In this document: positions 31,772-39,208 of the stretch, piece by piece
How the letters are laid out: each line of letters begins with the position of its first letter
How positions within the stretch are numbered: the first letter of the stretch is position 1
Assembly: GCA_016933955.1 (NCBI GenBank)
Contig: JAFGTT010000002.1
Location: 1-47,942 of the forward strand
Source of the DNA: Candidatus Zixiibacteriota bacterium
Lineage (GTDB): Bacteria > Zixibacteria > MSB-5A5 > GN15 > PGXB01
Length of the DNA stretch: 47,942 nucleotides
Direction: 5' to 3'
The notes under the pieces: model-generated
Seen by the model: only the letters and a program-made list of their open reading frames with translations
Told to the model about the DNA's origin: nothing
Database searches by the model: none
Position numbers and translations under genes: made by a program

Positions 31772-32632
31772 ATGAATTGTTTTTTTGTTTCGGATCTGCA
31801 TGGTAAAATCGGGCTTTATCGCAAGCTCTTTGATATAATACAGCGCGATTGCCCCGAGGCTCTTTTTCTCGGCGGCGACCTTTTGCCATCGGGCTTGAAT
31901 CAGCTGGCAGAAGATGATATCCAGCCGGATAATTTTATCCTTGATTTTATCCGTCCACAATTAACCCGATTAAAAACGAATCTGTCCGATAAATTTCCCC
32001 GGATATTTGTCATCCTCGGTAACGATGACAGCCGTCTCGAAGAAACCGCCGTCATGGATATCGAAAACGAGAGCCTCTGGGAATATATTCACGGGAAAAA
32101 AACGGCTCTGGATCGGTTTCCTGTTTATGGATATGCCCATATTCCCCCCTCTCCTTTCCTTCTGAAAGATTGGGAAAAATATGATGTTTCCAGGCATGTC
32201 GATCCCGGCAGCTTATCGCCGGAAGCGGGATACCGAACCATTCCGCGGGAAATTCAAAAGATCAGGTACAGTACGATTGCCCGGGACCTGGCCGACCTGA
32301 CCGGAGATTTTCGGCTCGACCACTCCATATTTTTATTTCACTCCCCGCCCTACCGGACCAGACTCGACCGGGCCGATCTCGATGGCCGGATGTTTGAGCA
32401 TGTTCCTCTCGATGTTCATATCGGGAGTATCGCCGTGCAGAGGTTTATTTCGGAGCGACAGCCGCTTCTGACTCTTCATGGTCACGTTCATGAATCTTCG
32501 CGCCTTACCGGCACCTGGAGCGATCGGATAGGAAAAACGGTGTGCCTTTCGGCCGCTTATGATGGTCCGGAACTGGCCCTGGTTCGTTTCGATCCGGATT
32601 GCCCGGAAAAGGCCGTTCGGGAATTATTGTGA
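31772..32632 (+). CDS. Calcineurin-like metallophosphoesterase
   Basis: The 286-residue protein has the metal-ligand series of the family: FVSDLHG (D-x-H), LGGDLLP (GD), LGNDDSR (GND), FHSPPYRTR and LHGHVHES (GHxH). It should hold a two-metal site hydrolysing a phosphate ester or a cyclic nucleotide. Its C-terminus overlaps by 9 bases the end of the convergent gene 32624-35809. No signal peptide is seen, so it is probably cytoplasmic. The substrate is unknown. Confidence 0.88.
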   Translation: MNCFFVSDLHGKIGLYRKLFDIIQRDCPEALFLGGDLLPSGLNQLAEDDIQPDNFILDFIRPQLTRLKTNLSDKFPRIFVILGNDDSRLEETAVMDIENESLWEYIHGKKTALDRFPVYGYAHIPPSPFLLKDWEKYDVSRHVDPGSLSPEAGYRTIPREIQKIRYSTIARDLADLTGDFRLDHSIFLFHSPPYRTRLDRADLDGRMFEHVPLDVHIGSIAVQRFISERQPLLTLHGHVHESSRLTGTWSDRIGKTVCLSAAYDGPELALVRFDPDCPEKAVRELL

Positions 32633-35600
32633 CGATTCCGGCTGTCTGCCTATCTGCAATGGCCGGGCGGCATCCGTAACGGCATCGATCTTGAGAGCGT
32701 AACTGGTCTTCGAGGCGATATCCTCGTCGGTCACATAATGCACATCAAGCAAACCCCCCGTTCGATACCCGGTCCGCAAATAGTTGAAATCGGCCAGGCT
32801 TAAACTCCAGCCCTCCAGCCAGGAATCCAGTAACCGGCGTTGCTCCGGCGAACCCCGGAAATGTATCAACAGGTCAATATCGCTGGCCGGCCCGGCCGTG
32901 CGATTTTTGGTACTGCCGAAAATATAACATCCCGCCACCCCGAAACGGGCCTGATCGATTTGAGAAGCAATCATCTCGGCCGACCGCAGGCGCCAGTGCC
33001 AGTAATTCTCTTTATGATGCTCCTCGGCCTGAACCAGCCCGATCGGGGCCGTATCGGTACTCGGTTGCACCAGCACCCCCATGGCTTCATCCAGATCGGC
33101 ATTCATCAGAACTCGTAGAATCCGCCCCTCGGCATTGCTGGGAACATCGATCAACCGGACCACTTCAGCCAGGGATTGATACTCCGGCAGAAAATCGGCC
33201 AGAATGTTTTTCGACCGCGTCAGAAACAGCTCGTTGAACTCCACTCCCTTATCATCCGGATAAAGCGGTAAATAACGGATATTGGCCTCCACCAGATCCT
33301 GGAAAAAATGCGTTCCAAAAGAAAGATCGGGCAAATAATTACCCTTTTTGAAAGCGATCTCGATCAGAACCGCGGTATTGCTGATATCCGAATATGTAAC
33401 ACTGACTCCGAGTTTGATATCTCCCCGACTTCCCCAGCGTCCCGGTCCCATCAGGATGAATTGCCGTTTGGGAAGAAGCTTGTTGAGTTTGCCGACCACC
33501 CGGCCAACCTTGGCCATCGAGTTGTAGTCAGGCAGATTATCATATTTCTTGGGATCGACGTAAACAATATGCGTCACATCAGGAACCCGGCCGTTGGAGA
33601 CAAACCGGTTGGCCGAAAATACGATTTGCTTCTTGGGGAAATCCTTTGGGATCGGGGCCGGCTTTCCCCGATCCGAATGACTCTGGGGCCGGCACTGAAG
33701 TAGATAAAAATCCTGGCCATCGGAAGCGAATTCGATGTCGACCGGGTACCCCAGTCGCTGTTCAAGAGTTTTCAAAATAGCATCGATCTGTTTTACAAAC
33801 GACGTCCCGGCTATCAAACCTTCAAAAGTAACCACCAGTTTATCGTTATCATAATCAATACTCAGTCCGCTTGGCTGGCTGAGATGCCCATCCTGGTAAA
33901 CGGAAACCAGGTTATGGACCCCTTTCATTTCCCCGCCAACTTCTCTCAAAAATTCGCGGATGGGGATTGTCTCGAAGCTGTTAGTCTCCAGATTGATGAC
34001 GTCAATTTCCCGAGGTGAATACCTGACCACTTCATCAGCCGTGACATTGACCCTCATACCCGGCTGTCCCGGAGCGACCAGGACCGGATAATCATTCCCC
34101 AGCCGATCGACCGCCCGTGTTCCCAGACCCGGTACCAGCCGAATCAAACCATCTTCACGCCGGATACTCGGCGACCAGCGGAATTCATTATTGCTGAAGG
34201 CCACACCGGCATAGGCGGGCAGGAAATAGCGGCCGTAACGTTTGCCGACCACTTCCTGAATCATGATGCCCATTTCCTCGCCGAAATCAATCAGGCCTCG
34301 TTCGGTGCGATACTCTATCGGGTCGGGACTGAAGGTCGAGGCATAGACTTCCGCGATGGCATCCATAAGTGCCTCCAGCCGTTCCTGTTTGGTCCCCTGA
34401 TTGGCCAGAAAAAGGCTTTTGTACTTACCGGAAAAAGCCGCGCCCACCCGATCTTCGAGCAGACTGGAACTGCGGACAATTATCGGTCGTTTACCGAAAT
34501 CATCGAGAGCCACCGATAATCCTTTGACAATATCGGCCGGGAAACGGGCGTTTTTGAACGTCTGGACGATATGGGGGTACTCCAGCCGGACCTGGTTGAT
34601 GCCTTTGTATTTCTGCTCGACCACATCATCGAAATTATTATAGTGCATGAAATGTAGAAGAATATCCGAAGTAACATGCCAGGTTCGCGGAATTCTAATA
34701 TTTTTCAGGATATCCAGTTCTTCGGATTTCTTACGAATTATCTGGGCCGCAAGGTAAAGCCCGGCGCTTTTCCCGCCCAGCTTACCGTGACTCTCGGTCG
34801 TGAAAATCATCTTCTGCAAAAGATGATAAAAATCATTAACGTCAATATAATCCTTGGCGACGCTGACATAGGACAACTGGTCCGATAAGAACCGCCGAAT
34901 CAGGGAAACATGAATACCGATCTTGCTCGGCGAAAAAATATCCGGGTCATCGGCCGCGATATGATGATACCGCCGGATGGCATCGGCCACCTCGGCCAGA
35001 GCCAGATTCCGGTTGACCACCTGGGCCAGAAAGCTCAATTTATCTTCCTGGATCCATCTCTGAACCAGTTCAAGTATCTGCTCGTCCTGGAGACTCTCCG
35101 CGGCGATCCGAAAAGCCCCTTCACAGAATTCCGTGGTCATTTCAATCTCGCGTCTCTGGTGCGGCTGGTTCCAGTCCTCTTCCAGCCCTTCATTGGACAT
35201 GAAAGCCGTCCCCTCCCGCGAATGCAGGAATTCCTCGGCCTCCTTAATCCCGCTCCAGCAAAGATGGTTGAGCATCTTCCGGGCAATATTGAAATAAAGG
35301 TTACGGTCGGTCTGACGAAGCATTTTCAGCACCACCGACCATTCCTGGCGGCTGGCTCCGTTCTTCCAAGAACCTTCCAGCTCCTGGACAATTGTGGACA
35401 TCTGCTGATGCATGATATGACTGCCGAGTCGTTCGGCAATGGTCCCGATCAGTTTCGATTCCTCTTTCAAAAACGGACCGTCATCGGCCGGCGGCATTTC
35501 CTCGGTATAATATACACTGATTTTGCCCAGGACCACCTGGTGGACGATTATATCGACACTCTGGTACCAGGGTGTCTCGAAAAACCGCGGCGAGGCATAA

Positions 35601-35809
35601 ACCTGGTCCTCAAAAACTATTTTCGCCTGGCAGACATCGGGGTACTGCCAGCCCGGCGGTATCGCCTCGACTACCTTCTGAAAAATGGAATCGAGCGGTT
35701 CATTGGGTTCGCGAAGGATTTCCTCAATCCGGTACAGACAATTAAGCTCCTTGGCCCGTTCTCTGAGCGATTCTATCAGTTTCTCGACCGGTTTTTTATG
35801 ATTGCTCAT
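32624..35809 (-). CDS. GAF-like, PPDK-type ATP-grasp and nucleotidyltransferase fusion
   Basis: The 1061-residue protein has several parts. Residues about 15-135 look like a GAF-type sensor domain. About 140-330 is mostly helical. About 340-710 is an ATP-grasp domain related to the N-terminal (ATP/phosphate) half of pyruvate phosphate dikinase and PEP synthase, with KLGGKSAGL, RSSSLLEDRVGAAFSGKY and the late FYLLQCRPQ. About 725-855 is a region shared with the next gene (MGPGRWGSRGDI, FGTHFFQDLV). Residues about 955-1025 form a nucleotidyltransferase: FGSTKNRTAGPASDIDLLI gives GS and DxD, with a further acidic strand LLDVHYV. The phosphohistidine (swivelling) and PEP-barrel domains of true PPDK are absent. 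It overlaps the upstream paralogue by 4 bases. No reaction is known to me. Confidence 0.8.
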   Translation of the reverse strand: MSNHKKPVEKLIESLRERAKELNCLYRIEEILREPNEPLDSIFQKVVEAIPPGWQYPDVCQAKIVFEDQVYASPRFFETPWYQSVDIIVHQVVLGKISVYYTEEMPPADDGPFLKEESKLIGTIAERLGSHIMHQQMSTIVQELEGSWKNGASRQEWSVVLKMLRQTDRNLYFNIARKMLNHLCWSGIKEAEEFLHSREGTAFMSNEGLEEDWNQPHQRREIEMTTEFCEGAFRIAAESLQDEQILELVQRWIQEDKLSFLAQVVNRNLALAEVADAIRRYHHIAADDPDIFSPSKIGIHVSLIRRFLSDQLSYVSVAKDYIDVNDFYHLLQKMIFTTESHGKLGGKSAGLYLAAQIIRKKSEELDILKNIRIPRTWHVTSDILLHFMHYNNFDDVVEQKYKGINQVRLEYPHIVQTFKNARFPADIVKGLSVALDDFGKRPIIVRSSSLLEDRVGAAFSGKYKSLFLANQGTKQERLEALMDAIAEVYASTFSPDPIEYRTERGLIDFGEEMGIMIQEVVGKRYGRYFLPAYAGVAFSNNEFRWSPSIRREDGLIRLVPGLGTRAVDRLGNDYPVLVAPGQPGMRVNVTADEVVRYSPREIDVINLETNSFETIPIREFLREVGGEMKGVHNLVSVYQDGHLSQPSGLSIDYDNDKLVVTFEGLIAGTSFVKQIDAILKTLEQRLGYPVDIEFASDGQDFYLLQCRPQSHSDRGKPAPIPKDFPKKQIVFSANRFVSNGRVPDVTHIVYVDPKKYDNLPDYNSMAKVGRVVGKLNKLLPKRQFILMGPGRWGSRGDIKLGVSVTYSDISNTAVLIEIAFKKGNYLPDLSFGTHFFQDLVEANIRYLPLYPDDKGVEFNELFLTRSKNILADFLPEYQSLAEVVRLIDVPSNAEGRILRVLMNADLDEAMGVLVQPSTDTAPIGLVQAEEHHKENYWHWRLRSAEMIASQIDQARFGVAGCYIFGSTKNRTAGPASDIDLLIHFRGSPEQRRLLDSWLEGWSLSLADFNYLRTGYRTGGLLDVHYVTDEDIASKTSYALKIDAVTDAARPLQIGRQPESSQ

Positions 35810-37560
35810 TTGAAAATTGCTCCCCGGCCGGTTCGGCCATCGACTTTTATGGTCAGCGGTGCGGCCGTTTTGACATGACTGACGAATTCCTTCCTGCTTT
35901 CTTCCTTCTGCTTACCCAGCCAGTCCCAGTCGATCCGGAATTTCCCCGTATGCGGTACCATAAAATAGCAGATCTGAAAACTCGAGATATTATGGAAAAA
36001 ATGTGAACCCTGGCTGAGATCGACATTCATATCCGGCATCGTGGCCTCCACAATTGCCCCGGCCCCGGAAATCTGACTCCATTCGACCGGAATCCCCAGC
36101 CAGGGATCGGAACTTCCCCACCGTCCGAAACCGATCAGAAGATATTTGCGCCCGGTATCCGCCATTTTGCGGTTGATCGCTTCCAGTTCGGAGGCGATTT
36201 CGCGCGTATATTGGGCCTTAAAGGTCTCTGGCCGAATATAAACAATATCGACTATATTTTCAACCACGCCATTACCCATAACGTTTTCCGAAGCCGCCAG
36301 GACCTTTTCTACGGACATCTCGACCGAAGCGACCTCGACTTTTGAATGCGAAACCACCATCGGCCGGACCTGCAGAAATCCGAACCGGGCCGGAAGACCA
36401 TGATTACGGTCAAGGGTTACCGCAAACTCGATTTCCACCTCACTGCCGACTGACTCCTCGCACATCTTCAGCAACGATGTCACCAGCTGATTGAAGGGCA
36501 TGGCATAACCGCTTAAGACCGGGGCGAAGGTTAAAACCCGCGGGCCATCATGACCGATCCCCGAAACCAGTCGATCATCCTGGGGCCGGTAGGTTGAGGC
36601 GATATATTTCAAAACACCGTCATATTCGGCTTCGGCCAGCGTTCTTTTAACCATGTACTCGGTTTCCTTAATCGGATCATGCTCCGGCGGTTTTCCCATA
36701 TTTACCGCCCAGAATTCCGTCTGGGTCGTTTTCATAAGCTCACCGACTGAGCCGACCGGCGGGGTCACCTTCGGAAACGATGGCGAATAACACCACACCA
36801 GCCCGCCGTCGACAATCGTCTTACCCAGTCCCAGTGCCAGATCAACCACACCCTGGTCCGGCCGGGCCCGTCCGATCGGATAAAAATTATAAGAACGGGC
36901 CACTCCGGAAAAAGTCGGGTAAAAAAACTCACCGTTTTTCAATCCGACTACCTCCTGGATAATCACCCCCATCTTTTCATCGCGGGGCGATTTCCCGGTC
37001 GCCCGGATATAATCCCTGGCACTCTTGAAAAAGGTCGAGGCATAAACATATTTTATCGCCTCCATCAGTTTGACAAACCGGGTATCCGTATCGGGCTGGT
37101 TATTGGGAATCATCTTGGTGGCGTAAACCCCCGCAAAAGGCTCATACATGGCATCTTCAAGAAGGCTTGATGACCTTATGGCCAGCGGAGTATGAACCGA
37201 ACCGGTCAGGGCCCTCAGATCCCCTACCATCTCGGCCGGAAAGTCGGCCTTTTGAAAAGCATGGGCGATTCGGTTGTCCGGCTCTTCGGATTGCACCGTT
37301 TCCCAGAGACCATTACGCTCCATGAAACTGTCGAATACATCCGTGGCCAGTACCGCCAGCCGGGGAATATTTATCGTTATCTGATTGAAAGCCCGATGAT
37401 CGAATTTGTCAGCCAGAAAATCTTTGATAAAAGCCAGACCGGAGGCCTTTCCCCCGATAGCCCCGGTTCCGATACGGGTCAAAACCTCGTCGGAGCCGAA
37501 AAAATCACGGCTGAACGGTTTGATTTTGTCTATATCGAATTTGATCGAGCGGGTTTCCAT
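35806..37560 (-). CDS. PPDK-type ATP-grasp protein, paralogue of its neighbour
   Basis: The 584-residue protein has the PPDK/PEP synthase ATP-grasp landmarks IGGKASGLAFI, LAIRSSSLLEDAMYEPFAGVY, MGVIIQEVVG and FGFLQVRPMV. After these comes the same extra region as in its neighbour (IGFGRWGSSDPWLGIP, QGSHFFHNISS). It lacks the phosphohistidine and PEP-binding barrel domains, so it cannot run the full pyruvate-to-PEP reaction by itself. It begins the two-gene unit and ends with ATGA, the ATG being the start of 32624-35809. The two proteins may form a complex. Possible jobs are phosphorylating or adenylating a target, or a nucleotide sensor; all are inference. Confidence 0.8.
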   Translation of the reverse strand: METRSIKFDIDKIKPFSRDFFGSDEVLTRIGTGAIGGKASGLAFIKDFLADKFDHRAFNQITINIPRLAVLATDVFDSFMERNGLWETVQSEEPDNRIAHAFQKADFPAEMVGDLRALTGSVHTPLAIRSSSLLEDAMYEPFAGVYATKMIPNNQPDTDTRFVKLMEAIKYVYASTFFKSARDYIRATGKSPRDEKMGVIIQEVVGLKNGEFFYPTFSGVARSYNFYPIGRARPDQGVVDLALGLGKTIVDGGLVWCYSPSFPKVTPPVGSVGELMKTTQTEFWAVNMGKPPEHDPIKETEYMVKRTLAEAEYDGVLKYIASTYRPQDDRLVSGIGHDGPRVLTFAPVLSGYAMPFNQLVTSLLKMCEESVGSEVEIEFAVTLDRNHGLPARFGFLQVRPMVVSHSKVEVASVEMSVEKVLAASENVMGNGVVENIVDIVYIRPETFKAQYTREIASELEAINRKMADTGRKYLLIGFGRWGSSDPWLGIPVEWSQISGAGAIVEATMPDMNVDLSQGSHFFHNISSFQICYFMVPHTGKFRIDWDWLGKQKEESRKEFVSHVKTAAPLTIKVDGRTGRGAIFK

Positions 37561-37677: not shown

Positions 37678-38964
37678 CTAAACCCAGCCTCGATCCCGGC
37701 AGGCCTGGGCAACCCGCGAGATTCCAATCAGATGGGCCGCGTCACGCATATTCAGACTCTTCTTTAGGGCCAGTTCACTGACATCCTGAAAAGCCGTCGT
37801 CATCCTGACATCAAGCTTACCGAGGACTTCGTCTGTGGTCCAGTAATAATTCGAATTGCTCTGAACCTGCTCGAAATAACTACAGATAACCCCGCCGGCA
37901 TTGGCCAGAGTATCGGGAATTAAAAATATATTCCGTTCGGATATTATCCGATCAGCCTCCGGCGTCACCGGCCCCCTGGCTCCCTCGGCAATAATTTTAA
38001 CCATGGGATTGATTCCCGGGGCATTCTCCTTGGTAATCTGGTATTCCAGCGCGGCCGGAATCAAAATATCTACCTCCTGCTCCAGCCATTCTTCCCCGGG
38101 TCGAACTTCATAGCCAAGGTCCTGCGCCCGGTCTTTGGAAATGCCCCCGAAATCATCGGTGATCTTCAGCAATTCATCCGGTTTGATGCCTTCTTTTCTA
38201 ATGTAAGCGTACGAAATCTGGTCATACTGATCCCAGCAGGAAACGCATTTAACCGTCCCGCCGATTTGATTATATAGACGGATGGCGTGCTGACCGACAT
38301 TACCGAAACCCTGCACACTGGCGGTGGTGTTCCGGGGAGACAGGTTAATCCTTTTCAACGCCTCACGCAAAGCATATATAATCCCGAAACCGGGTGCCTC
38401 CCGCCGTCCCAGGGAGCCGCCCTGACCAACCGGCTTCCCGGTTATAAAACCGGGATAACGCCCGCCATGAATATTTTCATATTCATCCAGCATCCAGAGC
38501 ATATGTTGCGGGGTCGTCATAATGTCGATCTCCGGGATATCCGCCAGCGGACCCAGCACCCGGGCCAGTTGCCTGACCCACCCCCGGCAGATCAATTCCT
38601 GAACCCGGATACTCAGATCATGCGGATCGCAGATAACCCCGCCCCGACTTCCACCCAGCGGGACATCGACCACCCCGCATTGCCATGTCATATTCATGGC
38701 CAGAGCCCGTACTTTGTCTATCGTTTCCTGAGGATGAAAACGGATCCCGCCTTTACACGGTCCGCGGGCATCATTATGTTGAACCCGGAATCCGCGAAAA
38801 ACCCGCGTCGAACCATTATCAAGGCGAACCGGAATACTGAACTGATATTCACGAACCGGTTGCCGCATAAACTCCCTGGTGCCGCTGTCCAGATCAAGCA
38901 TATCGGCAATACGATCGAATTGATCCTGGGCCATCCCGTAAAAATTGAAAGCCTTGTCATTCAT
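37678..38964 (-). CDS. Glutamate dehydrogenase homologue with altered lysines
   Basis: The 428-residue protein has the Glu/Leu/Phe/Val dehydrogenase fold: GPCKGGIRFHPQ (with K71), PEIDIMTTPQHMLWMLDEYE (with the expected Asp) and the Rossmann region ASVQGFGNVGQHA. Two positions normally Lys differ: MTWQC in place of MTWK (Q95) and PLGGSRGG in place of GG(A/S/G)KGG (R107). The second is the usual catalytic Lys of the family, so normal oxidative deamination is in doubt. The start ATG 38964 is preceded by AGGAT; a longer reading (38988) adds 8 residues. It is followed on its strand by the ATP-grasp pair after a 117-base gap. Confidence 0.85.
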   Translation of the reverse strand: MNDKAFNFYGMAQDQFDRIADMLDLDSGTREFMRQPVREYQFSIPVRLDNGSTRVFRGFRVQHNDARGPCKGGIRFHPQETIDKVRALAMNMTWQCGVVDVPLGGSRGGVICDPHDLSIRVQELICRGWVRQLARVLGPLADIPEIDIMTTPQHMLWMLDEYENIHGGRYPGFITGKPVGQGGSLGRREAPGFGIIYALREALKRINLSPRNTTASVQGFGNVGQHAIRLYNQIGGTVKCVSCWDQYDQISYAYIRKEGIKPDELLKITDDFGGISKDRAQDLGYEVRPGEEWLEQEVDILIPAALEYQITKENAPGINPMVKIIAEGARGPVTPEADRIISERNIFLIPDTLANAGGVICSYFEQVQSNSNYYWTTDEVLGKLDVRMTTAFQDVSELALKKSLNMRDAAHLIGISRVAQACRDRGWV

Positions 38965-39208
38965 ATAGTAATCCTGAATATATGTCACACGGATAATTAT
39001 TCATAATAATAGGCTCTCTGTAGCCGTCATAACAATAGATTATGGAATATTTAAAGTCAAGGGACAATGGAGAGAGCAATCAGATCGGAAAATAGGGATT
39101 ATTTAAAAAAATGTGATTCTCATTTGCATCTTTCTTACTTATAATTGACCTTCGGGAAAGTTGCCGGAATTGTCAATGAAAATACAAACCGGATATTACA
39201 AGGAATAT

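Follow-up and report, generated by a model that had tools for sequence, protein, structure and literature searches.

PPDK-type ATP-grasp proteins encoded beside glutamate dehydrogenase genes: candidate regulators of ammonia assimilation

What might a PPDK-type ATP-grasp domain be doing in proteins in which the remaining catalytic domains of PPDK are not recognised? This question is raised by a 47,942-nucleotide stretch of DNA from Candidatus Zixiibacteriota bacterium (contig C2 of its genome; the whole stretch is called the window hereafter), in which two adjacent genes on the minus strand encode proteins designated PA (1061 aa; 32624..35809) and PB (584 aa; 35806..37560). An initial annotation prepared from the sequence alone described them as a pair with overlapping genes that may phosphorylate or nucleotidylate an unknown target. 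Both open reading frames were recovered, and the junction (...AAATGAGC...) contains the ATGA overlap. Translation, Pfam searches and structural comparison divide PB into an ATP-grasp domain and a C-terminal domain carrying GRWGS and GxHFF motifs, with no other domain, and PA into a GAF domain, a helical linker, an ATP-grasp domain, a GRWGS/GxHFF domain and a nucleotidyltransferase.

The ATP-grasp domains are matched by Pfam PPDK_N at residues 34-415 of PB (36316..37461, minus strand; E 3.5e-34) and at residues 343-726 of PA (33632..34783, minus strand; E 5e-61), where K347, R446, E693, Q705 and R707 are kept. AlphaFold predictions for PA and PB have low confidence because the alignments are shallow. 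In the predicted PB model, VIA-align superimposes the ATP-grasp domain on that of RPH (Z 12.7, 2.8 A, 137 residues), and Foldseek and VIA-align together find the ATP-grasp of RPH and PEPS, GAF domains and, weakly, MNT-type nucleotidyltransferases in the PA model. The catalytic K, R, E, Q and R of PPDK_N are 96-100% conserved over 124 homologues, a set that comprises three types: PA, PB (26 proteins) and PC (37 proteins). The GGKxxGL, RSSSLLED, LQxRP, GRWGS and GxHFF motifs noted initially are likewise near-invariant in this set. PC is a relative encoded outside the window, represented in the same genome by a 993-aa protein with tandem receiver-like domains (L023 6349-9330). Its second receiver is canonical, with E182, D183, D252, S286 and K305 present in 100% of the 37 PC proteins; the first receiver of this representative looks degenerate. 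Thus, PC has the appearance of a response regulator, with the ATP-grasp plus GRWGS/GxHFF module as its output.

The two additional domains proposed for PA are also upheld. Residues 11-140 (35390..35779, minus strand) are not recognised by Pfam, and in the predicted model they align by VIA-align with many solved GAF domains (Z 9-12, 2.0-3.2 A, about 90-130 residues), the best matches having Z of about 11-12 (up to 11.9), rmsd of 2.1-2.8 A and 105-121 aligned residues. At the other end, residues 935-1055 (32645..33007, minus strand) form a nucleotidyltransferase with an NTP_transf_2 match above the cut-off at 954-999, and Foldseek relates the modelled domain to MNT/HI0073 (E 0.14-0.37). The GS pair (965-966), the DxD acids D977 and D979, and a third aspartate, D1022, are kept at 92-100% in 36 PA nucleotidyltransferases. 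Because the key residues of the ATP-grasp, the nucleotidyltransferase and the PC receiver are conserved, PA, PB and PC look catalytically competent.

A dikinase of the PPDK type also needs a phosphohistidine swivel and a substrate domain, and both had been declared missing. The PEP-binding barrel (PF02896) is indeed lacking from PA and PB as judged by Pfam, which matched neither PEP-utilizers nor PEP-utilizers_C in either protein. The absence of a swivel holds for sequence searches as well, and is doubtful at the level of the fold, as far as a low-confidence model can tell. The domain concerned occupies residues 405-584 of PB (35809..36348, minus strand; GRWGS and SxGxHFF motifs) and about residues 715-905 of PA (33095..33667, minus strand; placed by alignment and hhalign), and might be a divergent swivel. 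The PA and PB versions match each other at 99.7% by hhalign, and conservation of the GRWG and SxGxHFF motifs over the 124 homologues is 96-100%. No match was found in Pfam, and PDB sequences yielded no meaningful relative, only weak longin/VAMP7 matches. Sequence homology to real swivels was rejected, with a negative profile comparison and hhalign values under 1%.

This domain contains the only near-invariant histidine of these proteins, conserved at 98% over the 124 homologues and invariant at the GxHFF position in separate alignments A3 and A4. It corresponds to H520 of PB (36001..36003, minus strand), H834 of PA (33308-33310, minus strand) and position 924 of PC, and is a candidate phosphoacceptor. 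The PB model has a mean pLDDT of 48, with parts of the C-terminal region at 65-90. In VIA-align comparisons with this low-confidence model, residues 405-584 align at Z 5-6, where a structural Z below 8 can reflect a mere common arrangement, with the transferrin-receptor apical/PSMA, nicastrin and LD-carboxypeptidase C-terminal domains; residues 26-584 align with PPDK 10-507, phosphohistidine domain included. The first three belong to the swivelling beta/beta/alpha fold of SCOP. These matches are suggestive, not proof, of a resemblance of the GRWGS/GxHFF domain to that fold. If it is real, the claim of no swivel fails at the fold level and H520 becomes the natural phosphoacceptor.

The genes that flank the pair provide the most useful hints regarding function. 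Upstream of PB, 117 bp away on the same strand, lies a glutamate dehydrogenase (GDH) gene of a subtype termed GDH1 (37678..38988, minus strand; Pfam ELFV_dehydrog), and on the far side a calcineurin-like metallophosphoesterase gene (31772..32632, plus strand; Pfam Metallophos) converges on PA with a 9-base overlap at its end. The host genome holds five PPDK_N proteins, comprising one true PPDK and four without a swivel by sequence. The latter are encoded at three loci, namely the PA/PB pair, a PA paralogue (C19:43 kb; L022) and PC (C18; L023), and a GDH gene lies directly beside each. Conversely, all three GDH genes among the matches listed for this genome adjoin a member of the PA/PB/PC family. 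The true PPDK (C19:104-107 kb), which has both swivel and PEP barrel, is not beside any GDH. Genome-wide, the PF00391 swivel, like PEP-utilizers and PEP-utilizers_C matches in general, is confined to this PPDK and a C31 protein of 590 aa interpreted as PTS enzyme I.

The search for conserved neighbours in other genomes, proposed initially as a check, extends this arrangement to further members of the phylum. The sample consisted of 83 genomes at least 90% complete, and its GDH1 proteins are about 55-72% identical to the GDH of the window. Among the matches listed, GDH1 occurs in 40 of the 83 genomes and all 40 also carry PA/PB, which occur in 42 (Fisher p 1e-21, a value not to be read literally since the genomes are related). 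The comparison of GDH1 with its paralogues inside the same genomes is independent of kinship: a family member is located within 6 kb for 39/48 GDH1 genes and for 1/54 other GDH paralogues, again among the matches listed. Counted from the other side, with the same restriction, a GDH is found within 6 kb of 30/39 PA and 24/28 PB genes in the 83 genomes, and several exceptions sit at contig ends. In a matched control covering 34 of these genomes, none of 81 PF00391 swivel enzymes has a listed GDH within 6 kb. Most often the genes run GDH1-PB-PA and the convergent phosphoesterase comes next; a metallophosphoesterase is near 23/29 PB and 30/73 PA genes.

Similar linkages were observed in other bacteria. 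PB was matched at E <= 1e-20 in 92 of 388 genomes sampled across Bacteria, and GDH is present in 31 of 40 neighbourhoods examined from bacteria outside the phylum. In Parabacteroides distasonis a PC-type gene, whose product (WP_041525632.1) is annotated merely as a PEP/pyruvate-binding domain-containing protein, is head to head with gdhA, and Phocaeicola massiliensis has the same layout. In both, PC faces one GDH head to head and is located past the 3' end of another. Certain PA copies adjoin a glutamate synthase operon instead, with NuoF/GltD-like, ferredoxin and Glu_synthase genes (L015, L059, L061, L066, L067, L069 and L070), and these are mostly short forms that lack the nucleotidyltransferase. 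Some PA and PC copies are near neither GDH nor glutamate synthase genes, several of them at contig ends. On one contig (L015 1-23061), PC, GDH2, GDH1, PB, PA, the phosphoesterase, another PA of the short type and the three genes of a glutamate synthase are neighbours, which gives the impression of a complete island for glutamate synthesis.

The tie of this family to GDH, and in some cases to glutamate synthase, is strong and comes from genomic linkage. The target of the pair is thus not wholly obscure, as it had been in the initial annotation, which reported no GDH linkage. The other part of that proposal, a multi-protein system that phosphorylates or nucleotidylates and senses through a GAF domain, keeps its place as the preferred interpretation in view of the conserved ATP-grasp residues, nucleotidyltransferase acids and, in PC, receiver residues. 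We propose, with a probability of roughly one half, that the PA/PB family consists of dedicated regulators of GDH and some glutamate synthases that act by histidine-mediated phosphotransfer and, in PA, by nucleotidylation. The proposed chemistry draws on the conserved residues and on what is known of how PEPS, RPH and HpeHI work (PMC12167813). The ATP-grasp domain would phosphorylate the invariant histidine of the swivel-like domain (H520 in PB, H834 in PA), and the phosphohistidine would pass its phosphate to GDH or glutamate synthase, or switch the target through it. The target enzyme would thereby stand in for the missing substrate domain. Depending on the nitrogen or carbon status of the cell, this activity might be set by the GAF domain in PA or by the receiver in PC, and the conserved metallophosphoesterase is a possible eraser that would reverse one modification. 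GlnE and GlnD are nucleotidyltransferases that regulate ammonia assimilation by covalent modification, and the nucleotidyltransferase of PA could add a second modification as they do in enteric bacteria. By this analogy PA would differ in having the nucleotidyltransferase fused to a PPDK-like ATP-grasp and linked to GDH and glutamate synthase.

The GDH of the window bears on the proposed regulation through its catalytic residues. At the catalytic positions K89, K113, K125 and D165, which follow the numbering of the C. symbiosum enzyme, it reads K, Q, R and D; the substrate-binding and the catalytic lysine are both replaced (K113Q, K125R), and the protein is probably inactive. All four positions are intact in 59 of 66 aligned GDHs, and six further linked GDH1 proteins are altered at one or more of the four, in differing ways. 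In other linked GDH1 genes the catalytic lysine has been lost independently, to N, M or G. It looks like pseudo-GDHs have evolved recurrently among the linked GDH1 proteins. The persistence of linkage around degraded GDHs is an argument that some GDH1 proteins serve as regulators or adaptors. Because its catalytic lysines are lost, the GDH of the window may be a subunit that senses glutamate or 2-oxoglutarate, or an adaptor, for the other GDHs of the genome.

A common pathway, and not regulation, could also account for the linkage. PB, PA and PC might be dikinases for a small metabolite connected to glutamate or 2-oxoglutarate, with GDH and glutamate synthase as partners in the pathway. Their ATP-grasp residues are intact, and the well-known relatives PEPS, PPDK, RPH and HpeHI all phosphorylate small molecules (PMC12167813). 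This explanation is unlikely, given that the proteins show no recognised domain for binding a substrate, such as the PEP barrel, that the additional domains are sensory (GAF, receiver) or nucleotidyltransferases, and that the linkage is kept where GDH1 has lost catalytic residues.

Alternatively, the family might bind ATP and ligands and keep GDH or glutamate synthase in either an active or an inactive form with no transfer of phosphate, and the inactive GDH1 copies could be scaffold subunits. A role as non-covalent activator or assembly factor would also fit the title of Baggio and Morrison (1996, as cited in PMC4539542), which reports that GDH activity in B. thetaiotaomicron is affected by separate trans-acting gene(s) located downstream of gdhA. 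PC-type genes resemble this arrangement in being about 3 kb long and lying beside GDH in related genera, and are candidates for the trans-acting gene. A 3-kb segment is reportedly needed for the effect. The head-to-head placement of PC in P. distasonis and Phocaeicola is a point of difference. The conserved ATP-grasp residues, the invariant histidine and the nucleotidyltransferase acids all suggest catalysis, however, which makes a purely non-covalent role quite unlikely.

Another division of labor would make nucleotidylation the main output, with PA adenylylating or uridylylating GDH, glutamate synthase or a signalling protein in the manner of GlnE or GlnD, and the ATP-grasp acting only as a sensor. 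The nucleotidyltransferase is carried by 42 of 61 PA proteins and its active site is conserved as described above, but PB, PC and the short PA forms lack the domain and are still linked to GDH or glutamate synthase, so this possibility is improbable. Other candidates were discarded: an ordinary or broken PPDK is at odds with the conservation of the family, including its distinctive C-terminal domain, in different phyla and with the separate true PPDK of the genome; an HpeHI-like split enzyme does not fit a genome without a dedicated swivel partner gene and a pair whose members are both PPDK_N proteins; and a defence or toxin-antitoxin (MNT) function has only weak nucleotidyltransferase matches, with no HEPN partner gene noticed adjacent. 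No phage family match was found for PA or PB.

Histidine-mediated regulation of GDH and glutamate synthase would set this family apart from the systems that it resembles. With PEP synthase, PPDK and RPH it shares a PPDK_N ATP-grasp with catalytic residues and probably the order of ATP-grasp followed by a swivel-like domain; it differs in lacking a PEP barrel and any recognised RIF-binding domain, in a histidine domain that sequence searches fail to recognise, in its additional sensor and nucleotidyltransferase domains and in its linkage to GDH and glutamate synthase. In the two-component dikinases HpeHI, CreHI and PpsAB, one subunit holds the ATP-grasp and the other the swivel plus substrate domain (PMC12167813). 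PA and PB are similarly a two-gene unit with the ATP-grasp encoded apart from a classical substrate domain, but both carry an ATP-grasp and the same novel histidine domain. In the open-licence literature searched, no paper was found that assigns a function to PA/PB or describes the linkage of PA, PB or PC with GDH genes. The parts are known folds plus one conserved domain without an assigned family; for their assembly and its connection with glutamate enzymes, no description seems to exist in that literature.

To our knowledge, the control of GDH and glutamate synthase activity is poorly understood in many bacteria outside the well-studied groups. There is a substantial chance that the PA/PB/PC family is a new class of nitrogen regulator. 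Its fuller form, in which ATP-grasp proteins with a new swivel-like histidine domain control GDH and glutamate synthase post-translationally by phosphotransfer between proteins, the target enzyme takes over from the missing substrate domain, inactive GDHs serve as sensors and gut Bacteroidota use a response-regulator version, is put forward tentatively, at somewhat less than even odds. The PA/PB pair probably switches ammonia assimilation on and off, and the family suggests that dikinase machinery has been recruited for protein regulation. Since these proteins are widespread under generic names and physically tied to GDH and glutamate synthase genes, the question of regulation is directly testable.

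Two further loci were noticed among the neighbourhoods. On plasmid CP1 of Deinococcus radiodurans (L117 725-2801), a gene for a PEP-utilizing enzyme lies beside a stand-alone PPDK_N gene near a Qat anti-phage system, and this pair is possibly an HpeHI-like split dikinase. Elsewhere (L010 6490-9537, minus strand), a 1015-aa protein combining WD40 repeats, a Roc GTPase-like region and a TIR domain is encoded two genes from a PA copy.
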